Assembly: GCF_000384375.1 (NCBI RefSeq)
Contig: NZ_ARVX01000001.1
Location: 124,001 to 188,000 of the forward strand
DNA from: Methylotenera versatilis 79
GTDB lineage: Bacteria; Pseudomonadota; Gammaproteobacteria; Burkholderiales; Methylophilaceae
Direction: 5' to 3'
DNA length: 64,000 bases
Both the position numbers and the translations under genes were made by a program. Every line of letters starts with the position of its first letter. Positions within the stretch are counted from its first letter, which is position 1. Shown piece after piece: positions 13,104-27,285 of this stretch. The notes beneath the pieces were generated by a model. The model was given only the letters and a program-made list of their open reading frames with translations. It did no database searches and was not told where the DNA came from.

Positions 13104-13472
13104 TCAGCCGATGACTTTTTGTACAATCTCAATGAGCTTTTTAGGGTCAAACGGTTTTACTAACCAGCCATTCGCACCTGCGGCACGGCCTTGCGATTTC
13201 ATTTCATCACTGGATTCCGTTGTCAGCATCAAAATAGGGACTTTTTGATAACTCACTAAGTTACGTAGCGAGCGGATCAACGTAAGGCCATCCATAACCG
13301 GCATGTTCTGATCCGTCAATACAAGATCAACCGTTTGCTGTTTGGCTTTATTTAATGCATCTTGTCCATCGATGGCCTCAATTACTTTGTACCCGGCAGC
13401 ATTCAAACTAAAGACCACCATTTGCCTGAGTGAACCAGAATCGTCGACAGCCAGAATCGTTTTTGTCATCAT
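13104..13472 (-). CDS. Second CheY-type response regulator
   Basis: Single receiver domain, 122 residues. The acidic pair D10/D11, phospho-acceptor D54 (LTDQNMPVMDG), T84/T85 region and K106 (LVKPF) are present, so phosphorylation is expected. It differs clearly from the cheY beside cheZ. It lies directly upstream of cheA and downstream of a CheZ-like gene, forming a second regulator/phosphatase pair. It could bind FliM or act as a phosphate sink; sequence alone does not decide. Confidence 0.93.
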   Translation of the reverse strand: MMTKTILAVDDSGSLRQMVVFSLNAAGYKVIEAIDGQDALNKAKQQTVDLVLTDQNMPVMDGLTLIRSLRNLVSYQKVPILMLTTESSDEMKSQGRAAGANGWLVKPFDPKKLIEIVQKVIG

Positions 13473-13566: not shown

Positions 13567-14112
13567 CTAGAAAAGCTCAATTTCGCCACTGACCATATGT
13601 TTTTGCTTTACTTCTTGACTTAGGCCGTCTTTAAGCGCCCCGCTCTTTAAACTTAAGCTGTCATGTATTTTTTCCAGCAACTCCTCAATAGATTCATTTT
13701 GTGAGGTATGCGTATCCATGCGATGATTCGCTAACACAGTTAATAAATCGCGTAATCCAGAAATCCGTTTTACGGTGCGCATGATCAGTTGATTCGTCAG
13801 GTCTTGAAATTGCAACCCAGTCACCACAGTGTTGATTTCTAGATGAATTTTTTCGCGTAGCGCCAAAACACCAAACCTTTGCGTTGCCTCAATATCATGT
13901 GTTTGTAACGCATCGCCCAATAACTGCTGTTGCTGACTAACCAGTTGATTGATCTGCATAAACCCGCCGCTTAAAGTCTTAATCGCTTGCTCTAGCAAGA
14001 ATGAGGTCTGTTCCAAGTCCGCTTCTGCAGCTTGCAAATGCTGGTTGCCATGTTCAGAAACGCGACTGAGTAAGCGCTGCAGTTCAATCATTGGTAAATT
14101 ATTCCTATCCAT
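13567..14112 (-). CDS. CheZ-like protein (putative second CheY-P phosphatase)
   Basis: The 181-residue, mostly helical protein contains LQFQDLTNQL, matching the CheZ core signature (QDFQDLTGQ). The acidic residue and catalytic glutamine of DxxxQ are both kept (D104, Q108). The long helical N-terminal part fits the CheZ four-helix hairpin. It lacks the DDLLESLGF type CheY-binding tail and ends instead in SGEIELF, close to the CheD tail. It sits between motB and the second cheY. I infer a CheZ-family phosphatase for CheY-type regulators, possibly localised through its tail; activity is not shown by sequence alone. Confidence 0.65.
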   Translation of the reverse strand: MDRNNLPMIELQRLLSRVSEHGNQHLQAAEADLEQTSFLLEQAIKTLSGGFMQINQLVSQQQQLLGDALQTHDIEATQRFGVLALREKIHLEINTVVTGLQFQDLTNQLIMRTVKRISGLRDLLTVLANHRMDTHTSQNESIEELLEKIHDSLSLKSGALKDGLSQEVKQKHMVSGEIELF

Positions 14113-14172: not shown

Positions 14173-15090
14173 TTAATTTGGGCTTAAGCTTTCTACTCCA
14201 GGCACGGTATTGCTATTCACTTTGACTGCAGCGTCATCATTCAAAACGTCCTCTTCGGCTTTCTTATTCATGACGATAATGCTGATTCGGCGATTGACCG
14301 GATTCAAAGGATTCGCCCGATCAAATAACACTGCAGAAGAAAGACCCACCACCCTTAATAATTTTGTTTCATCAATACCACCAGCAACTAATTCACGCCG
14401 TGCAGCATTTGCACGATCAGAGGACAACTCCCAGTTACTATAAAGTTTTTCGCCATTAGGATATGGCGACGCATCGGTGTGTCCGGATAGGCTAATTTTG
14501 TTCGGCAGGCCATTCAGCACTTGGCCGATCTCATGCAATATCTGCCTTGCATACGGCTGAAGCTCCGCTTTTGAAGAGGCAAACATCGGACGATTCTGGT
14601 CATCCACAATCTGAATACGTAAGCCTTCAGTGGTGATATCCAGCAGCAATTGGTTTTTGAACTGGTTCATCGTAGGACTGGCGTCAATAGCCTGTTGCAG
14701 CTTTTGTTTAAGATCTTCCAGCTTTTGTTTTTCCAGCCTTTCAAGCTCGGCCTTGGCAGACTTAATGTCAATTTTTTTGATGCTTTCCTTACCTTCTGCT
14801 TTTCTAACCTGGCCCGCCTGCTGCGTTAAATCTTTGCCTCCGCCTTTAAGCACAGACTGGCTGCCACCCACAGCCGGACCACCCATCAAGGCCACTTTCA
14901 ACGGAGTTTTGAAGTACTCTTCAACCCCTTTTAAATCCCCTGCAGACAACGTTCCTAACAGCCACATAAGCAGAAAAAAAGCCATCATGGCGGTGACAAA
15001 ATCTGCATAGGCAATTTTCCAGGCGCCACCGTGGTGGCCATGGACGATTTTCTTGATGCGTTTTACGACAATTACATTGCCATCAGCCAT
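14173..15090 (-). CDS. motB: Flagellar stator protein MotB
   Basis: MotB anchors the proton-driven stator to peptidoglycan. The 305-residue protein has one TM segment with the proton-binding aspartate D30 in KIAYADFVTAMMAFFLLMWL, a plug/linker region rich in charged residues, and a C-terminal OmpA-like peptidoglycan-binding domain (LSGHTDASPY, NWELSSDRANAARREL, NRRISIIV). Size and motifs match E. coli MotB. It follows motA by 42 bp. Confidence 0.97.
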   Translation of the reverse strand: MADGNVIVVKRIKKIVHGHHGGAWKIAYADFVTAMMAFFLLMWLLGTLSAGDLKGVEEYFKTPLKVALMGGPAVGGSQSVLKGGGKDLTQQAGQVRKAEGKESIKKIDIKSAKAELERLEKQKLEDLKQKLQQAIDASPTMNQFKNQLLLDITTEGLRIQIVDDQNRPMFASSKAELQPYARQILHEIGQVLNGLPNKISLSGHTDASPYPNGEKLYSNWELSSDRANAARRELVAGGIDETKLLRVVGLSSAVLFDRANPLNPVNRRISIIVMNKKAEEDVLNDDAAVKVNSNTVPGVESLSPN

Positions 15091-15132: not shown

Positions 15133-15993
15133 TTATTTGGCTTTGGCTTGTTTGACGTGTTCTTCAAGCTCTAAGAATTTAGGACGTTCTGTGGAGTACA
15201 AAACTTTACGGCCAAATTCAACTGCGATTGCAGGGGGATATCCGTTTAAACTGGCTAGGAAAGTAACTTTCACGCACTGGAACATTTTTGATGATTCGTC
15301 CGCTTTTTGCTCGAGTAAACTTGCTAGTGGGCCAATAAAACCATACGCCAGCAAGATACCCAGAAAGGTACCGACTAAAGCATGCGCAATCAAAATGCCT
15401 AACTCTGCTGGTGGAATGCCTATAGACTCCATCGTATGGACTACACCCATCACCGCGGCAACGATACCAAAGGCTGGCATACCATCGCTCAGCTTTGCGA
15501 GACAGTGTGAAGGCACCATACTTTCGTGATGATGCGTTTCAATTTCGTTATCCATCAGATTTTCGATTTGGAACGCGTCCATATTGCCCGAGACCATCAA
15601 GCGCAGATAGTCGGAAATGAAATCAATAAAGTGATGGTCTTTTAGTAAATCGGGATACTTCTGGAACAGCAAACTTTGTTCTGGATCTTCAATATCCTTC
15701 TCGATGGCCATCATGCCATCACGACGGATCTTGGTAAGAATCTCGAATAAAAGTGCTAATAAATCTAAATATCGAGCTTTAGAATGTTTGGAGCCTTTGA
15801 ATAACCCGGGGAGACTTTTAAGTGTTGCTTTCACTGCCCTAATGTCGTTTCCGACGAGAAACGCTCCCAAAGCTCCGCCTCCAATCATCAGTAACTCCAG
15901 CGGCTGGAGAAGTGCTGCAAGATGACCACCAGCAAGCGCGAATCCGCCAAACACTGAGGCAAGTACAACAATATATCCAACGATGACTAACAC
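15133..15993 (-). CDS. motA: Flagellar stator protein MotA
   Basis: MotA and MotB form the proton-driven stator. Four TM segments and a cytoplasmic loop are present; the loop carries the charged rotor-contact region (about 75-165). I chose GTG at 15993: it gives an N-terminus LVIVGYIVVLASVFGG that aligns residue by residue with E. coli MotA (LILLGYLVVLGTVFGG), and a GGGAG site lies 8 bases upstream. An upstream in-frame TTG at 16008 would add five residues but has no site. The 286-residue length is normal. A putative sigma-28 promoter lies at 16096-16122. Confidence 0.95.
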   Translation of the reverse strand: MLVIVGYIVVLASVFGGFALAGGHLAALLQPLELLMIGGGALGAFLVGNDIRAVKATLKSLPGLFKGSKHSKARYLDLLALLFEILTKIRRDGMMAIEKDIEDPEQSLLFQKYPDLLKDHHFIDFISDYLRLMVSGNMDAFQIENLMDNEIETHHHESMVPSHCLAKLSDGMPAFGIVAAVMGVVHTMESIGIPPAELGILIAHALVGTFLGILLAYGFIGPLASLLEQKADESSKMFQCVKVTFLASLNGYPPAIAVEFGRKVLYSTERPKFLELEEHVKQAKAK

Positions 15994-16095
15994 TATATCG
16001 ACTCCCAAGAAATAGCTTTATTGATAGCTTGCAGAATAACAACTGGGCCATTAATACAAATGCGGGAATAAAAGGCTTAAACCGCTTCTAATATA

Positions 16096-16122
16096 CTTAC
16101 GGAAGATGCCGGCGAAACTTTA
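16096..16122 (-). promoter_or_regulatory. Putative sigma-28 promoter before motA
   Basis: On the minus strand the -35 is TAAAGTTT (perfect), the spacer is 11, and the -10 is TCCGTAAG, matching the consensus GCCGATAA only in its CCG core and partly beyond. The predicted start is about 16089, roughly 95 bases before motA. motA is a classical class 3 gene, which supports the call. Confidence 0.5.
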
Positions 16123-16970: not shown

Positions 16971-17558
16971 TTAAGCTTGTTTTGCTAATAATTGCTCATT
17001 TTGTAATTGAGTTGCTAATTTAAGTTCAGCCATTTCTTTAGCTTTTTTAGTTTTACCTGCACGTGATGGAATGTGACATAAATTACAACGGTAATCTTGA
17101 TTAAGATCGTAAGAACTCACTAAGAACCTGCCTTGGCAACAGGCGCAGGAATGCATTTTTAACAACTTAACTTCCACGAATCGCACTAATGTCCACGCAC
17201 GAGTCATGGAAAGTACCGGCTCTGAATCCGCATCAGTTTTCGCTTGGTGCAGATAAATTTTGTAAGCCGTCATGATGGCTTCAATCCCTTTTACATCTGC
17301 ATATTCCAGCAAAAAATTATAAATACTCATGAAGATGGATGAGTGAATATTAGGCTGCCAGGTCAGAAACCAATCGGATGAGAAAGGCAACATGCCTTTA
17401 GGTGGCGATACCCCTTTTAACTCTTTATACAACTTAATTAAACGCTCACGCGATAAAGTAGTTTGAGATTCTAATAGCTGCAATCGGGCCCCTAGGTTGA
17501 TTAACTTGATACTTAATTGGATTTGTTCAGCATCACTCACTACACTTTTATTCGCCAT
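16971..17558 (-). CDS. flhC: Flagellar master regulator subunit FlhC
   Basis: FlhC joins FlhD to form the DNA-binding activator of early flagellar operons. The protein aligns along its length with E. coli FlhC, including IQLxxxLINLGARLQLLE, LSRERLIKLYKELKG, TRAWTLVRFVE and the zinc-binding cysteines in CACC and CNLC. I chose ATG 17558 (195 residues), which has AGGTGA upstream and matches the E. coli start; a GTG at 17567 and an ATG at 17561 are alternatives. It follows flhD by 68 bp. Confidence 0.96.
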   Translation of the reverse strand: MANKSVVSDAEQIQLSIKLINLGARLQLLESQTTLSRERLIKLYKELKGVSPPKGMLPFSSDWFLTWQPNIHSSIFMSIYNFLLEYADVKGIEAIMTAYKIYLHQAKTDADSEPVLSMTRAWTLVRFVEVKLLKMHSCACCQGRFLVSSYDLNQDYRCNLCHIPSRAGKTKKAKEMAELKLATQLQNEQLLAKQA

Positions 17559-17626
17559 CATATTCACCTAAATTCTTAATTTTTTTAATTTGCAGCTAGC
17601 ACATTTTTACTGGGTACAAAGCGCTC

Positions 17627-17944
17627 TTATGCAATCATCTCAGCACCATGATTCGCCATCAAAATCATGGCATGCGCTTTTGCCAGCACAGTGTCTTTAT
17701 CGTAGTTAGTTAACATGCCTAGGATGACGCTGTCATCGAACCTAAATCGAGCCAGCATCATGTCTGAGCTGGACATCTTAATAATTTGTGCACTGCTTAA
17801 AGTTTCTAGGATATCGGCAATCGGTTTACTCAAACCTAACCTAAAAATTGCAGCAGATTTATCTTCGCGAATCATTTTTTGAGCCAACATTAAATAGTTC
17901 AAATTGGCATCGCGTATTTCAGAGATCATTTCGCTGTCAGTCAT
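17627..17944 (-). CDS. flhD: Flagellar master regulator subunit FlhD
   Basis: FlhD is the partner of FlhC in the heterohexameric activator. About 105 residues; conserved segments are ANLNYLMLAQKMIREDKSAAIFRLGLS and FRFDD. I prefer ATG 17944, with GGGA six bases upstream; an ATG at 17959 would add five residues. The gene is preceded by a 590-bp AT-rich leader region holding two perfect sigma-28 promoters and a long hairpin. That makes it look FliA-dependent, not (or not only) a class 1 gene. Confidence 0.95.
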   Translation of the reverse strand: MTDSEMISEIRDANLNYLMLAQKMIREDKSAAIFRLGLSKPIADILETLSSAQIIKMSSSDMMLARFRFDDSVILGMLTNYDKDTVLAKAHAMILMANHGAEMIA

Positions 17945-18058
17945 TTTATTCCCAATCATTCCGTTAAATTTGCAGGAGTGCGTGAGATGAACTTTGACGT
18001 TTATGATGTGGAAATTATATTGGAGTCTATCGGTATTTTTTGACAGACAAGCGCAATG

Positions 18059-18097
18059 AGGGAATACAGCGTTTGTCTTACAAGCGCTGTATTCCCT
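18059..18097. repeat. 18-bp inverted repeat with 3-base loop in flhD leader
   Basis: Arms 18059-18076 and 18080-18097 pair at 17 of 18 positions; the odd pair (18072/18084) is a G-U wobble in plus-strand RNA and A-C in the flhD sense RNA. The loop is CTT. In the flhD sense no T-tract follows. A nearby segment, 18046-18054, can also pair with 18069-18077, so two exclusive structures are possible in the flhD leader. Confidence 0.8.
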
Positions 18098-18235
18098 TAA
18101 TTTATTTACAACTCAATCAACAACTTATCATGTTATTGAAAGTGGTAATTTTGATAACGAAACGAATGTTTCATTGAAATTTAATTTTATTTCTGCTTAA
18201 AAATAATTTTCCATCATAAATTTTCTATAAATATC

Positions 18236-18262
18236 TTATCGGCAAGCATTTAAAAAACTTTA
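18236..18262 (-). promoter_or_regulatory. Sigma-28 (FliA) promoter toward flhDC, proximal
   Basis: On the minus strand this is TAAAGTTT, an 11-base spacer, then GCCGATAA: a perfect match to the FliA consensus. Predicted start near 18229, giving a leader of about 285 bases before flhD that includes the hairpin at 18059-18097. Confidence 0.85.
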
Positions 18263-18392
18263 GGGTTAAACAAAAAATATTTTGAATAATTTTTTAACTT
18301 AATGATTTTATTAGCTAAAAAAACAAAATATTTTTAAATAATTTCTTTTGCACTCCCTTTTCTTGTTTTTCATACAGCGTTTCCTTGGTGCC

Positions 18393-18419
18393 TTATCGGC
18401 AGAATTTCAAAAAACTTTA
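18393..18419 (-). promoter_or_regulatory. Sigma-28 (FliA) promoter toward flhDC, distal
   Basis: A second perfect TAAAGTTT-N11-GCCGATAA on the minus strand, exactly 157 bp upstream of the proximal one. The flanking bases are also similar, suggesting a local duplication. Confidence 0.85.
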
Positions 18420-18549
18420 GGATTAACCGTATTTTCACCCCCTTATTCCCGAAATCTAACTAAAGATTGCTGACCAATAATGGCAGCCATGTCATTCCAA
18501 TACACTTCATGCGTCTTAAAACACAAAAGATTGGATCATAGGAAATAAA

Positions 18550-19719
18550 GTGGCTGAAGATAGCGATTTAGAAAAAACAGAAGAAGCCTCCGCCAAGCGG
18601 CTTGAGAAAGCACGCGAAGAAGGCGACGTCCCCCGCTCACGCGAACTGGCGACCTGTACTGTGCTATTCGCTACCGGCGTAGGTTTTTCTGTGCTGGGTC
18701 AGCCAATTAATACCGCGCTTAAATCTAACATGAGTGGATTACTGCATTTAGAAAGACAAGCGGCGTTTGATCCGACATTTCTATTGAGTAGAATCGCCGA
18801 TTCGATTTTGAGCCTAATGATTGCCTTTGCTCCGCTCGCACTTTTAATCATCATCGTAGCGATTGCCTCACCCGCGTTAATTGGAGGCTGGTTAATGAGT
18901 GGCAAAGCTTTAATGCCTAAATTCAGCAAACTCAATCCGATTCGTGGCCTGTCTAATCTGATATCAAAAAATTCAGCTGTTGAGATCGTTAAGTCGGTCG
19001 CTAAATCACTTTTAGTCGGCGGCGTGGCATATCTTGTGATCAAAGCCAATCTGGATCATATGCTTTCACTTTCACAATTACCCGTGGATGAAGCCATCGG
19101 TGCAACCGCAAGTCTGCTGCTCAAGGCTTTTTTAATGATCGTCGCTTCCTTGATATTGATTGCTGTTATTGATGTGCCCTATCAGCTCAAACACTATGCC
19201 GATAAACTCAAAATGACAAAAGAGGAAGTCAAACAGGAAGCGAAAGAATCAGAAGGCAATCCTCAAATCAAGGCACGTATTCGCCAGCAGCAAAGAGAAA
19301 TGGCGAGACGTCGCATGATGTCAGAAATTCCTAAAGCGGATGTGGTCATTACCAACCCTACGCATTACGCAGTGGCCATTAAATATGCTGATGACAGCAT
19401 GCGCGCACCCAAAGTGATTGCTAAAGGTGCAGATGCTGTTGCCTTGAAAATACGTGAAATTGCCAGTGAACATCACATCATGACCTTAGAGTCACCTAAA
19501 TTGGCGCGTGCACTGTATGCGCATACTGAACTGGGCGATGAAATTCCTGAGACGTTATATTCGGCTGTGGCTGAAGTATTGGCTTATGTATTCCAAATGC
19601 GCATTTTCAAGAAAGACGGTGGCTTGATGCCTACTCTTTCCAAAGCTTTGGATATTCCGAGCGGATTAGATCCGCATGAAGAGATGAGTGCAGAACAATT
19701 ACAAGGAGTGAGTGTATGA
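18550..19719 (+). CDS. flhB: Flagellar export switch protein FlhB
   Basis: FlhB is the substrate-specificity switch of the flagellar type III secretion gate. The 389-residue protein has four TM segments (about 30-50, 85-110, 140-165, 185-210) and a cytoplasmic domain with the autocleavage motif NPTH, N at residue 269 as in Salmonella. The start is GTG with AGGA seven bases upstream. It overlaps flhA by 4 bp (ATGA). First gene of the plus-strand flhBAFG-fliA-motCD run. Confidence 0.97.
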   Translation: MAEDSDLEKTEEASAKRLEKAREEGDVPRSRELATCTVLFATGVGFSVLGQPINTALKSNMSGLLHLERQAAFDPTFLLSRIADSILSLMIAFAPLALLIIIVAIASPALIGGWLMSGKALMPKFSKLNPIRGLSNLISKNSAVEIVKSVAKSLLVGGVAYLVIKANLDHMLSLSQLPVDEAIGATASLLLKAFLMIVASLILIAVIDVPYQLKHYADKLKMTKEEVKQEAKESEGNPQIKARIRQQQREMARRRMMSEIPKADVVITNPTHYAVAIKYADDSMRAPKVIAKGADAVALKIREIASEHHIMTLESPKLARALYAHTELGDEIPETLYSAVAEVLAYVFQMRIFKKDGGLMPTLSKALDIPSGLDPHEEMSAEQLQGVSV

Positions 19720-23966: not shown

Positions 23967-24701
23967 ATGTTAACGTACGCTGATAAACCAGACTCCAAAA
24001 ACACATTGCTGATGCAAAACTCAGCCTTGGTTAAGAAAATTGCCTATCAACTCAAAGCCAAACTGCCGGCCAGCGTAGAGCTTGATGATTTGATACAAGT
24101 GGGCATGATGGGGCTGTTAGATGCCGTGAATCGCTACGAGGATAATCATGGTGCCCAGTTTGTCACTTATGCCTCCCAGAGAGTTCGGGGCGCCATGCTG
24201 GATGAACTCCGGAGCAGTGACTGGTTGCCTCGCAGCATGCGTAAAAACATGCGCGATGTGGAAACAGCCATTCAGAAGCTTGAGCAAAAGTTAAGCCGCT
24301 CCCCGACCGAGGGTGAAGTCGCTCAATATCTTGAGTTAAGTATTGAGGACTATCACTTGATGCTTGGGGATTGCGGCGGCCATCAACTTATTTACTATGA
24401 GGATTTTGGTAATGAAGACGGTGGCGAAAGTTTCCTGGATCGTTATATGGATGGCTCTTCACAAGACCCTATCCAGGCCTTGCTTTCCACTGATTTCAGG
24501 GACGCTGTGATCAATGCCATTGAAAGCCTGCCAGACCGTGAAAAAATGCTGATGGGGCTTTACTACGAGCAAGAACTTAACTTAAAAGAAATTGGCGCGA
24601 TCATGAATGTATCGGAATCGCGCGTTTCTCAATTACACAGCCAATCTGTTGCAAGATTGCGCGCCAGCCTTAAGGAGCAATCGTGGACTGGGGTAGTTTA
24701 G
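23967..24701 (+). CDS. fliA: Flagellar sigma factor FliA (sigma-28)
   Basis: FliA directs RNA polymerase to late flagellar and chemotaxis promoters and is held by FlgM until the hook is complete. The 244-residue protein has sigma region 2 (DLIQVGMMGLLDAV, RVRGAMLDELR), region 3 and region 4 (LPDREKMLMGLYYEQELNLKEIGAIMNVSESRVSQ helix-turn-helix). Promoters with its consensus occur at several sites in this window. It overlaps motC by 19 bp. Confidence 0.97.
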   Translation: MLTYADKPDSKNTLLMQNSALVKKIAYQLKAKLPASVELDDLIQVGMMGLLDAVNRYEDNHGAQFVTYASQRVRGAMLDELRSSDWLPRSMRKNMRDVETAIQKLEQKLSRSPTEGEVAQYLELSIEDYHLMLGDCGGHQLIYYEDFGNEDGGESFLDRYMDGSSQDPIQALLSTDFRDAVINAIESLPDREKMLMGLYYEQELNLKEIGAIMNVSESRVSQLHSQSVARLRASLKEQSWTGVV

Positions 24702-25423
24702 TCGGCATTGTTATCGCCCTTGGCGGTATCGCATTAGGACAAAGCATTGAAGGTGGCAATATTGCTTCCTTGCTGCAACCAGCTGCATTCGTGATCGTCT
24801 GCTGCGGCACCGTTGGCTCGGTCATGCTGCAAACTAAACTTCCTACCTTTTTTCATGGTATTACATTATTAAAATGTATTATCGTCACGCCTGCTGATAA
24901 CAGGAAAACTCTCCAGCGAAAATTGAGCGCTTGGGGACACATCGCGCGTAAAGAGGGTGTTTTAACTTTGGAAAATCATCTAAAAGTTGAACAGGATATT
25001 TTTTTAAGAAAAGGGTTGCGACATGTGATTGACGGTACGCCACCCAACAAATTACGGGAAATTTTCTCCATTGATATCGAAAACTATGAAATGAGTGAAC
25101 GTAGCGCTATTCGCATCTGGGATGCGGCGGGCGGTTACGCACCCACTGTCGGGATTTTGGGCGCGGTCCTTGGGTTGATCCATGTGATGGAGAACCTTTC
25201 CGATCCTAATTTATTGGGTAGCGGCATCGCTGTTGCCTTTGTAGCAACCATTTATGGCGTCGGCTTGGCCAACTTGGTGTTTTTACCCATCGCTAACAAA
25301 TTACGCATGTTGTTGAATATTGAAACTACCCGTCGCGAAATGATATTGGCGGGCATGATGTCGATTGCGAATGGTGAGCATCCGCAAGTGATTGAAGAAC
25401 GCATGCAGAGCTATATTCGTTAG
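24683..25423 (+). CDS. motC: Second stator channel subunit MotC (MotA family)
   Basis: The 246-residue MotA/PomA-family protein starts at a GTG inside fliA, with AAGGAG six bases upstream. Four TM segments are predicted, with a cytoplasmic loop and the late conserved AAGGYAPTVGILGAVLGLIHVMEN and YGVGLANLVFLPIANKL. It is closer to the MotC/PomA branch than to the motA at 15133-15993. The fliA-motC-motD order parallels the motCD arrangement in Pseudomonas-type flagellar loci. Confidence 0.92.
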   Translation: MDWGSLVGIVIALGGIALGQSIEGGNIASLLQPAAFVIVCCGTVGSVMLQTKLPTFFHGITLLKCIIVTPADNRKTLQRKLSAWGHIARKEGVLTLENHLKVEQDIFLRKGLRHVIDGTPPNKLREIFSIDIENYEMSERSAIRIWDAAGGYAPTVGILGAVLGLIHVMENLSDPNLLGSGIAVAFVATIYGVGLANLVFLPIANKLRMLLNIETTRREMILAGMMSIANGEHPQVIEERMQSYIR

Positions 25424-25431
25424 GGGGTTCT

Positions 25432-26226
25432 ATGGGCTTAAGACGTAGATTTCATGAAGAAGAAGCCGAGAACCACGATCGCTGGCTTGTTTCCTACGCG
25501 GATTTCATTACGCTATTGTTTGCCTTTTTTGTAGTGATGTATGCGCTTTCTACAGTAAATCAGAATAAATATCGCGATTTAACCAGCTCATTAAACAACG
25601 CATTTGGACAGCAGAACTCAGCCCTTAATAAAACGCCACTCTCCGAAACTGTGCGAAGTGGTCCGGCAAACAGCTCGCTTGATTTACCCGGTTTACCGTT
25701 AAATAAACTTAAGCATGAGCGTTTACGCAAAGAGCGTGAAAATATGACGGGTATTGCAATCAATCTTGCAAATACCCTTTCACCTTTAATTAAAGCGGGT
25801 CAACTACGTGTGATACAGAACAATGAAGGGATACGCATCGAAATTAGCGATAGCATCCTTTTTGCGCCTGGATCGGCAGCATTGGCACCCTCTTCAACTA
25901 AGCTTTTACAAGAGATTGCTCACGGACTCGCAGCTGACCATCATCGGCTGCAAATTGAAGGTCACACCGACAATCTACCCATCCACAATGTGGAATTCTT
26001 TTCCAACTGGGAGCTTTCAGCAGTACGGGCCAGCACTTTAGTGCGGATGTTCGTTATGAATGATATCGAAGAGCCGCGTTTAAGTGCAGTGGGCTACGGC
26101 GCTTCTAGGCCATTGGCCGACAACAACACCGTAGAAGGCCGAGCCAAAAATCGGCGGGTTTCCATGACATTGCTTTATGCAAACCCTAATCCATCCGAAG
26201 GTTCTGAAATCCTTCCTACACATTGA
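25432..26226 (+). CDS. motD: Second stator anchor subunit MotD (MotB family)
   Basis: The 264-residue partner of MotC has one TM segment with the ion-binding aspartate D24 in SYADFITLLFAFFVVMYAL and a C-terminal OmpA-like domain (IEGHTDNLPI, NWELSAVRASTLVRMF, NRRVSMTLLY). It begins 8 bp after motC with GGGGG-type ribosome sequence. Together they give the cell an alternative stator. Ion preference is probably protons but cannot be settled from these motifs. Confidence 0.93.
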   Translation: MGLRRRFHEEEAENHDRWLVSYADFITLLFAFFVVMYALSTVNQNKYRDLTSSLNNAFGQQNSALNKTPLSETVRSGPANSSLDLPGLPLNKLKHERLRKERENMTGIAINLANTLSPLIKAGQLRVIQNNEGIRIEISDSILFAPGSAALAPSSTKLLQEIAHGLAADHHRLQIEGHTDNLPIHNVEFFSNWELSAVRASTLVRMFVMNDIEEPRLSAVGYGASRPLADNNTVEGRAKNRRVSMTLLYANPNPSEGSEILPTH

Positions 26227-26890: not shown

Positions 26891-27193
26891 CTAGCGATTT
26901 GCCTGTAAAAAATCTTTGACGCTATTGATCAATCCGTCTGCGACTTTTTCAGCGCTCACATTAAATTGACCATTCTTGATCGCCAATTTGATTGATTCCA
27001 CTTTTTCAGCATCATAGACATTATCTGCAGCGACTTTAGCTTCCAACGACTGCAGCTTAGTCGACATCGGTGATAAAGTCACGGTGCCAGAGGCCTTCGC
27101 CGGTGTAGCTGTGTCAGGCTTTTTTGCAGCTTTATTATCAGATTTATCAGTACCGAGTACTAAGCTCTTTTGTACGGAGTCATTAATCTTCAT
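26891..27193 (-). CDS. flgM: Anti-sigma-28 factor FlgM
   Basis: FlgM binds FliA and is exported through the finished hook to release it. The 100-residue protein has a flexible, lysine/alanine-rich N-terminal half and a C-terminal sigma-binding half (VESIKLAIKNGQFNVSAEKVADGLI). It has its own sigma-28 promoter (27259-27285) with a leader of about 60 bases, which is normal feedback wiring. Confidence 0.95.
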   Translation of the reverse strand: MKINDSVQKSLVLGTDKSDNKAAKKPDTATPAKASGTVTLSPMSTKLQSLEAKVAADNVYDAEKVESIKLAIKNGQFNVSAEKVADGLINSVKDFLQANR

Positions 27194-27258: not shown

Positions 27259-27285
27259 TTATCGGCTATGTTTGATCAAACTTTA
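27259..27285 (-). promoter_or_regulatory. Sigma-28 promoter of flgM-flgN
   Basis: Perfect TAAAGTTT-N11-GCCGATAA on the minus strand. Predicted start near 27252, about 59 bases before the flgM ATG. Confidence 0.9.

Follow-up and report, generated by a model that had tools for sequence, protein, structure and literature searches.

In the textbook flagellar cascade control runs one way, from the master regulator FlhDC to FliA (sigma-28). For Escherichia coli, none of the sites in Table 2 of a FliA ChIP study lies upstream of flhD, and the FliA site that lies inside flhC is given there as belonging to motAB-cheAW (PMC4183435). Late feedback on flhDC has been described in Salmonella, where the relevant passages of PMC3946378 give a positive route via FliZ and HilD at promoter P5 and a negative one via RflM at P1; that feedback is indirect, acting via other regulators, whereas a direct FliA promoter is proposed here. 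Sigma-28-dependent small RNAs that act within the flagellar hierarchy are also on record, namely UhpU, MotR, FliX and FlgO in E. coli (in the passages concerned of PMC10578931) and CjNC1 and CjNC4 in Campylobacter (likewise PMC4626219). Among the open-access titles and abstract openings listed in our search, the scope of which left the subscription literature mostly outside, none describes a FliA promoter on flhDC, and the passages on FliA and flhDC in PMC9600491, PMC13432727, PMC11242183, PMC7060138 (Acidovorax) and PMC11537037 (Bordetella) mention no such promoter, which is weak evidence for its novelty.

The locus examined here lies in a 64,000 nt stretch of the genome of Methylotenera versatilis 79 (the window). 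It resembles E. coli in having the same regulators (FlhD, FlhC, FliA and FlgM), the same sigma-28 consensus and an flhDC operon that adjoins mot-che, and differs in the presence of strong sigma-28 sites upstream of flhD, where the E. coli ChIP table cited above has none. An E. coli-type hierarchy, in which the flhD upstream region is free of FliA sites, fits neither the window nor most flhD loci of the family.

Two sigma-28 sites upstream of flhD

The sites, and the genes and further site needed to judge them, are as follows.
18393..18419, minus strand: predicted distal sigma-28 promoter, TAAAGTTTTTTGAAATTCTGCCGATAA; perfect match, equivalents conserved in relatives
18236..18262, minus strand: predicted proximal sigma-28 promoter, TAAAGTTTTTTAAATGCTTGCCGATAA; perfect match, equivalents conserved in relatives
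18263..18302, minus strand: UP-like, AT-rich stretch with CCC at its end, flanking the proximal site upstream; 83% A+T over 30 nt
17627..17944, minus strand: flhD; PF05247 and NF002783, frame reaches 17959
23967..24701, plus strand: fliA, the sigma-28 gene; NF005413 and TIGR02479 above cut-off
27259..27285, minus strand: third perfect sigma-28 site of the genome, used for class 3 comparison; 66 nt before flgM
26891-27193, minus strand: flgM, downstream of the third perfect site

The sequence TAAAGTTT-N11-GCCGATAA occurs twice, exactly, on the minus strand in front of flhD with a start-to-start spacing of 157 bp, and both copies aim at flhD and match the FliA consensus in the -35 and -10 elements and the 11 nt spacer. 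The likely flhD start (17944) is the ATG where relatives begin too, and lies 292 nt from the proximal and 449 nt from the distal site. The neighbouring flhB is divergent from flhD and starts at 18550, and the gap between the two genes holds no open frame of at least 80 aa. The coordinates and orientation given in an earlier, sequence-only reading of this DNA were reproduced, as was its statement that no other gene lies between the sites and flhD. The two sequences are very likely sigma-28 promoters and, from promoter geometry alone, transcription is predicted to start near 18386 (distal) and 18229 (proximal).

The 2.6 Mb genome has only three perfect sigma-28 sites, where 0.002 would be expected given the base composition of the window, and the third stands in a normal class 3 position before flgM. 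When up to three mismatches were allowed, the window contained eight matches compared with 0.87 in shuffled sequence. Over the whole genome, 12 matches with up to two mismatches (six of them in the window) show no excess over the 14 found with a reversed control pattern and, hence, genome-wide only the perfect matches are informative. Sites with one or two mismatches lie in the flgA/flgB region, before flgK and before a flagellin gene; as class 3 flagellar genes also carry sites, this genome appears to use the motif, and both FliA and FlgM are encoded within the window. Directly after fliA, a second stator pair (24683-26226, plus strand), additional to motAB, matches models for a MotA-type flagellar motor protein and MotD.

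An AT-rich flank and similar surroundings at both sites had earlier been taken to suggest a local duplication. The description holds for the proximal flank (83% A+T), but the distal one is 57% A+T and is without the AT-rich element, and the repeat barely exceeds the promoter, extending over 35 nt at 83% (the promoter and a few bases) with an AT-rich pair of 28 nt at 75%. As the repeat is little more than promoter and flank, functional similarity explains it as well as duplication does; four congeners have a single forward site, and the duplication is weakly supported. A common upstream flank, roughly AAtttttTtaaattttTTT..aaa..aCCC, emerged from 77 sites in the family and 104 outside it, and this consensus resembles an UP element.

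Conservation in Methylophilaceae and beyond

FlhD is present in 74 of 187 genomes of the family, and 76 loci from 71 genomes were examined, leaving out G125, G155 and G162, where the copy is at a contig end or incomplete, and further second copies in g7. The main set of 68 loci omits seven second-type copies and the broken flhD of G013. In this comparison, of a kind that the sequence-only reading had put forward as a check, a forward site (up to three mismatches, between -720 and -200 of flhD) is found in 63 of the 68 main-copy loci, which are non-independent, and in 10 of 13 genera, while 149 permuted motifs gave a mean of 0.35 and a maximum of 4. Among the five misses, the sequence available before flhD is too short in L009 and L035, and the remaining three (G021, G016 and G205) have degenerate sites. 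Scored with a matrix built from four further class 3 sites in the window, the weak sites of G021 and G016 gave p=0.03 and p=0.01, respectively, and G205 carries the same weak site as G016.

The number of tandem sites varies, with three in g17 and g18, two in g2, g11 and the window, and one elsewhere. Each of the four congeners in which the region before flhD is intact has a single forward site, accompanied in three of them by a reverse site. Reverse sites were found in 35 of the 68 loci; 31 face the forward site across 112-185 bp, three (in g15) point away and in one the upstream sequence is cut off. The facing reverse sites aim at flhB where this is the neighbour, and the window has none. In L008, L012, L015 and many loci of g7 and g20 a reverse site is located at about -280 from flhD and is directed away from it.

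The second-type flhD copies of g7 (L081-L086 and L088) are without a sigma-28 site (0/7). A second-type flhD is the sole copy in G196 and G189. One FlhD that begins like the second-type copies (L065) was kept in the main set, and this locus has a site.

Outside the family, a search with the family FlhD alignment gave 585 matches and the best 80, minus 14 from Methylophilaceae, made up a set of 66 loci that is not a random draw. In these best-matching loci the forward site is present in 56 of 66 and a reverse site in one, and 43 have at least two tandem sites (38 with two, five with three). Two Massilia loci reach four sites, about 75 bp apart, at a looser cut-off. Records with sites include Massilia, Janthinobacterium, Undibacterium and Methylotenera; Massilia, Janthinobacterium and Undibacterium, like Duganella and similar genera, are members of Oxalobacteraceae. 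An even draw from the order (leaving out G374, G275, G427 and weak FlhD matches) is a fairer estimate of spread than the best-match set, and in it a forward site is present in 23 of 75 loci, three of them no more than 225 nt from flhD and possibly chance matches, and a reverse site in two of 75. Positive loci are concentrated in f34 (6/6), f42 (4/4), f25 (4/6) and f8 (4/7), with single loci in f4, f11, f16, f29 and f48, and 13 of the 22 other families show no site. Among loci titled Herbaspirillum the upstream site is absent from seven of eight, four of these seven having a site before motA, and the eighth (L163) has two upstream sites and no internal one. Sigma-28 sites before flhD are, hence, widespread but patchy. 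They are real and maintained by selection, and the earlier claim of sigma-28 promoter sequences directed at flhDC extends to Methylophilaceae and beyond.

The leader between the promoters and flhD

The stretch between the proximal site and flhD includes four further elements, all on the flhD strand.
18059..18097, minus strand: conserved hairpin with 18 nt arms and apical core TTGTAAGACAA; covariation over 54 sequences
18022..18050, minus strand: block after the hairpin, TTGTCTGTC AAAAAATACCGATAGACTCC; an altered form is conserved in relatives
18014..18019, minus strand: TATAAT, candidate class 1 -10 box with no good -35, proposed from the sequence
17982..17996, minus strand: leader segment CAAAGTTCATCTCAC, with CAAAGTACGYCTMAC in many relatives; from sequence comparison

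The conserved leader block extends to about -50 in the conservation profile of g7 and g20, and the hairpin core TTGTAAGACAA is nearly invariant, at a distance of about 150 nt from flhD, in most of the examined family loci. A scan for sigma-70-like sites found two, compared with 2.7 expected, one of them on the flhD strand (18213-18184), and the TATAAT is not among them.

The covarying hairpin is a finding in its own right. In 54 family sequences, 94.9% of the pair cells in the stem are standard and 11 of 17 pairs change on both sides; the covariation score was reached by 0 of 500 shuffles and the number of two-sided pairs by 11 of 500, and sliding the partners against each other abolishes the covariation. 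As the core was the criterion for including these sequences, the four innermost pairs are invariant by construction and the evidence lies in the outer stem. In 40 sequences from outside the family the middle of the stem is mostly unpaired. The hairpin is reduced to the core and right arm in g3, and is kept in full in g8 although the sigma-28 site there is degenerate. A stem that acts at the RNA level requires flhD transcripts that start upstream of it, and transcripts from the sigma-28 promoters would do so. Conservation of the right arm extends to some second-type copies that have no left arm, raising the possibility of a DNA-binding role for the region. The left arm has decayed in the second-type copies that were read. 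An Rfam search of the leader returned only FuFi-1, at 18.4 bits against a cut-off of 59.6. The hairpin was rejected as a dispersed repeat; the genome has a single exact copy of the 13-nt core and three copies with one mismatch, compared with five for a reversed control.

No intrinsic terminator of the type scanned for was found on the flhD strand between 17950 and 18560 of the window. Among relatives, a terminator-like T-rich tail lies between the sites and flhD in seven of 119 (4/63 in the family, 3/56 outside), in all seven at the position of the leader hairpin, while on the opposite strand the counts are 0/63 and 3/56. Conservation of the predicted transcript in g7 is moderate over the first ~35 nt and poor over the next ~40.

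Pairing of a small RNA with the flhD leader was discarded as a general mechanism, since the RNA duplex energies of 77 sigma-28 units, each scored against its own flhD leader (the only target used) and compared with 40 shuffles and with units of other genera, gave a mean z of -0.22. The only outliers were G030 and, in part, g18, where the signal is partly a low-complexity GT/AC repeat. Two of the three units of the G030 locus (L006; at -605 and -428) can form 27 base pairs with the flhD leader, with one bulge, and the pairing segments resemble an inverted copy of that leader.

Masking of the flhD start in long transcripts was examined in 55 predicted transcripts from 48 hand-picked loci (35 in the family, 13 outside) and was likewise rejected; the mean difference from transcripts with shuffled 5' parts was -0.004, and 25 of 55 were lower. 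Single loci that were lower are L107 (0.10 vs 0.36), L063 (0.52 vs 0.66) and the first site of L001 (0.25 vs 0.39), and in the window the flhD start is, if anything, more open in the predicted sigma-28 transcript. A small peptide encoded after the promoters was also considered, as an ATG is present behind the predicted start in several relatives, and was rejected, since judged by eye this ATG is lost or soon meets a stop in L041, L042, L047 and the g20 loci shown.

Genes downstream and the role of the sites

The genes that follow flhD, and a weak site among them, are listed in order.
16971..17567, minus strand: flhC; PF05280 and NF009365
16142..16957, minus strand: methyltransferase-like gene between flhC and motA; hits below cut-off, position conserved
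16096..16122, minus strand: weak sigma-28-like site before motA, 4 mismatches; 14.0 bits vs 22.5 for the flhD site
15133-16008, minus strand: motA, same strand as flhDC
14173-15090, minus strand: motB, same strand as flhDC
13567-14112, minus strand: gene of 181 aa, preceded by motB and followed by the cheY-like gene; without a match in Pfam or NCBIfam
13104-13472, minus strand: response regulator resembling CheY, same strand as flhDC

Gene order was read in 15 main-copy family loci with 8-13 kb of downstream sequence. In 13 of the 15, motA lies downstream of flhDC on the same strand, and the complete order flhD-flhC-methyltransferase-like-motA-motB-x-cheY-cheA-cheW is found in 11; among the remainder, one contig ends after motB and one locus has an insertion before motA, its stretch ending in cheA. 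The 181 aa gene keeps its position in relatives. In G031 and G035 the upstream sites are retained and motA, motB and the che genes are absent from about 9 kb downstream (G035 is also without flhB in the 3 kb upstream of flhD). In G031 motA lies further on, on the same strand, at 13.6 kb, as it does in the congeners G204 (6.3 kb) and G203 (16.8 kb), and in G035 it is on another contig; no sigma-28 site with up to four mismatches was found in the 1.5 kb before the displaced motA.

We consider it probable, at roughly 60%, that both sequences are FliA promoters that transcribe the flhDC operon, making the master operon class 3 as well and letting FlhDC and FliA reinforce each other. The tandem promoters would stand upstream of the conserved leader and of an ordinary class 1 promoter, for which the TATAAT is a candidate -10 box. 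Once the hook is finished and FlgM exported, free FliA would transcribe flhD, flhC and the methyltransferase-like gene and continue onward to motAB-che, so that an operon led by flhDC would be both class 1 and class 3 and FliA would directly boost flhDC late, in a positive loop. Direct transcription of flhDC and the downstream genes by FliA is the most likely mechanism; we infer that the promoters depend on FliA, that transcription runs through the leader hairpin, that flhD is translated from the resulting mRNA and that FlhDC levels rise as a net effect. The perfect matches, their conservation within the family and outside it, the tandem arrangement and the shared UP-like flank support this reading, as do the lack of a terminator before flhD (17950-18560) and an flhD start whose accessibility is not reduced overall. 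It is weakened by the distance of the sites from flhD (292 and 449 nt) with a strong hairpin between, by the absence of a site in 13 of 22 families of the order, in seven of eight Herbaspirillum loci and in the seven second-type g7 copies, and by the distal site of the window, which is without the AT-rich flank. Salmonella fliAZ offers a parallel as a regulatory flagellar operon with its own sigma-28 promoter, though that operon encodes FliA itself, and the sigma-28 transcript of Salmonella fliA is reportedly translationally inert, which also tells against FliA promoters serving flhDC.

The promoters might instead serve mainly to give the methyltransferase-like gene, motAB and che class 3 timing, with flhDC passed through and, as reported for Salmonella fliA, poorly translated from the long mRNAs; we regard this as unlikely but deserving of serious weight. 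The position of motA next in line in 13 of 15 family loci is consistent with it and the loss of the upstream site in Herbaspirillum, together with the site before motA, favours mot-che as the target. Outside the family (66 loci), a site internal to the flhD-motA interval is present in one of 56 with upstream sites and four of 10 without (all four Herbaspirillum; p=0.0013, kinship ignored). This exclusion is weaker over all 99 loci (5/71 vs 6/28; p=0.07, kinship ignored) and absent from the 33 order loci (4/15 vs 2/18). Of the 71 loci with upstream sites 66 have the methyltransferase-like gene, against 12 of the 28 without, but the contrast comes from the order loci alone (11/15 vs 2/18), the GTDB loci having it in 55/56 and 10/10. 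Furthermore, the motA of the window has its own weak sigma-28 site, and no general masking of the flhD start was seen in the 55 predicted transcripts (-0.004). The retention of sites in G031 and G035, without mot-che in reach, favours flhDC as the target; flhDC or the methyltransferase-like gene thus seems worth a promoter on its own. A regulatory RNA that ends wholly or partly at the hairpin, as an attenuator of flhDC or an RNA acting in trans, appears distinctly improbable. It would account for the covariation of the hairpin, the T-rich tail in seven of 119 loci (three of 119 on the opposite strand), the 27 base pairs with one bulge in G030 and the moderately conserved first ~35 nt in g7. 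However, the window is without a terminator on the flhD strand at 17950-18560, the next ~40 nt are poorly conserved in g7, pairing of unit and leader is not general (mean z -0.22, 77 units) and g8 keeps the full hairpin despite its degenerate site. The sigma-28-dependent RNAs of E. coli and Campylobacter are discrete, whereas the scan of 17950-18560 of the window found no terminator on the flhD strand and, in g7, conservation of the predicted RNA drops after the first ~35 nt.

Negative feedback, in which sigma-28 transcription across the class 1 promoter lowers late flhDC output, is very improbable; the sites do lie upstream and aim through the conserved leader block, and 31 of 68 family loci have the forward site opposed by a reverse one, but interference has no obvious need for repeated UP-like promoters. 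That the sites are chance sequence in an AT-rich gap is barely credible. The genome count with up to two mismatches, no higher than for the reversed pattern (12 vs 14), would fit chance, but conservation in relatives (63/68 vs a mean of 0.35 for permuted motifs, and 56/66 outside) does not.

Sigma-28 promoters aimed at flhDC, in this methylotroph and many of its relatives, suggest feedback from the final stage of flagellum assembly to the initial one. If so, the cascade becomes a loop able to lock cells in the motile state, and what was learned from E. coli and Salmonella would not hold for many environmental Betaproteobacteria. A bolder version is that in many Betaproteobacteria tandem, UP-like FliA promoters close a direct FlhDC-FliA loop that is gated by the leader hairpin as a tunable attenuator; we hold this to be rather doubtful, but if true the hairpin is where the cell decides whether late FliA activity leads to more FlhDC or only to a short RNA.

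An element like CCCTTTTATTC is present at 18439-18451 (plus strand) before flhB and at 16063-16075 (minus strand) before motA. It is found before flhB in nine of 10 relatives and before motA in five of 13 and, though not above chance in the window alone, it is possibly an FlhDC binding element of Methylophilaceae.
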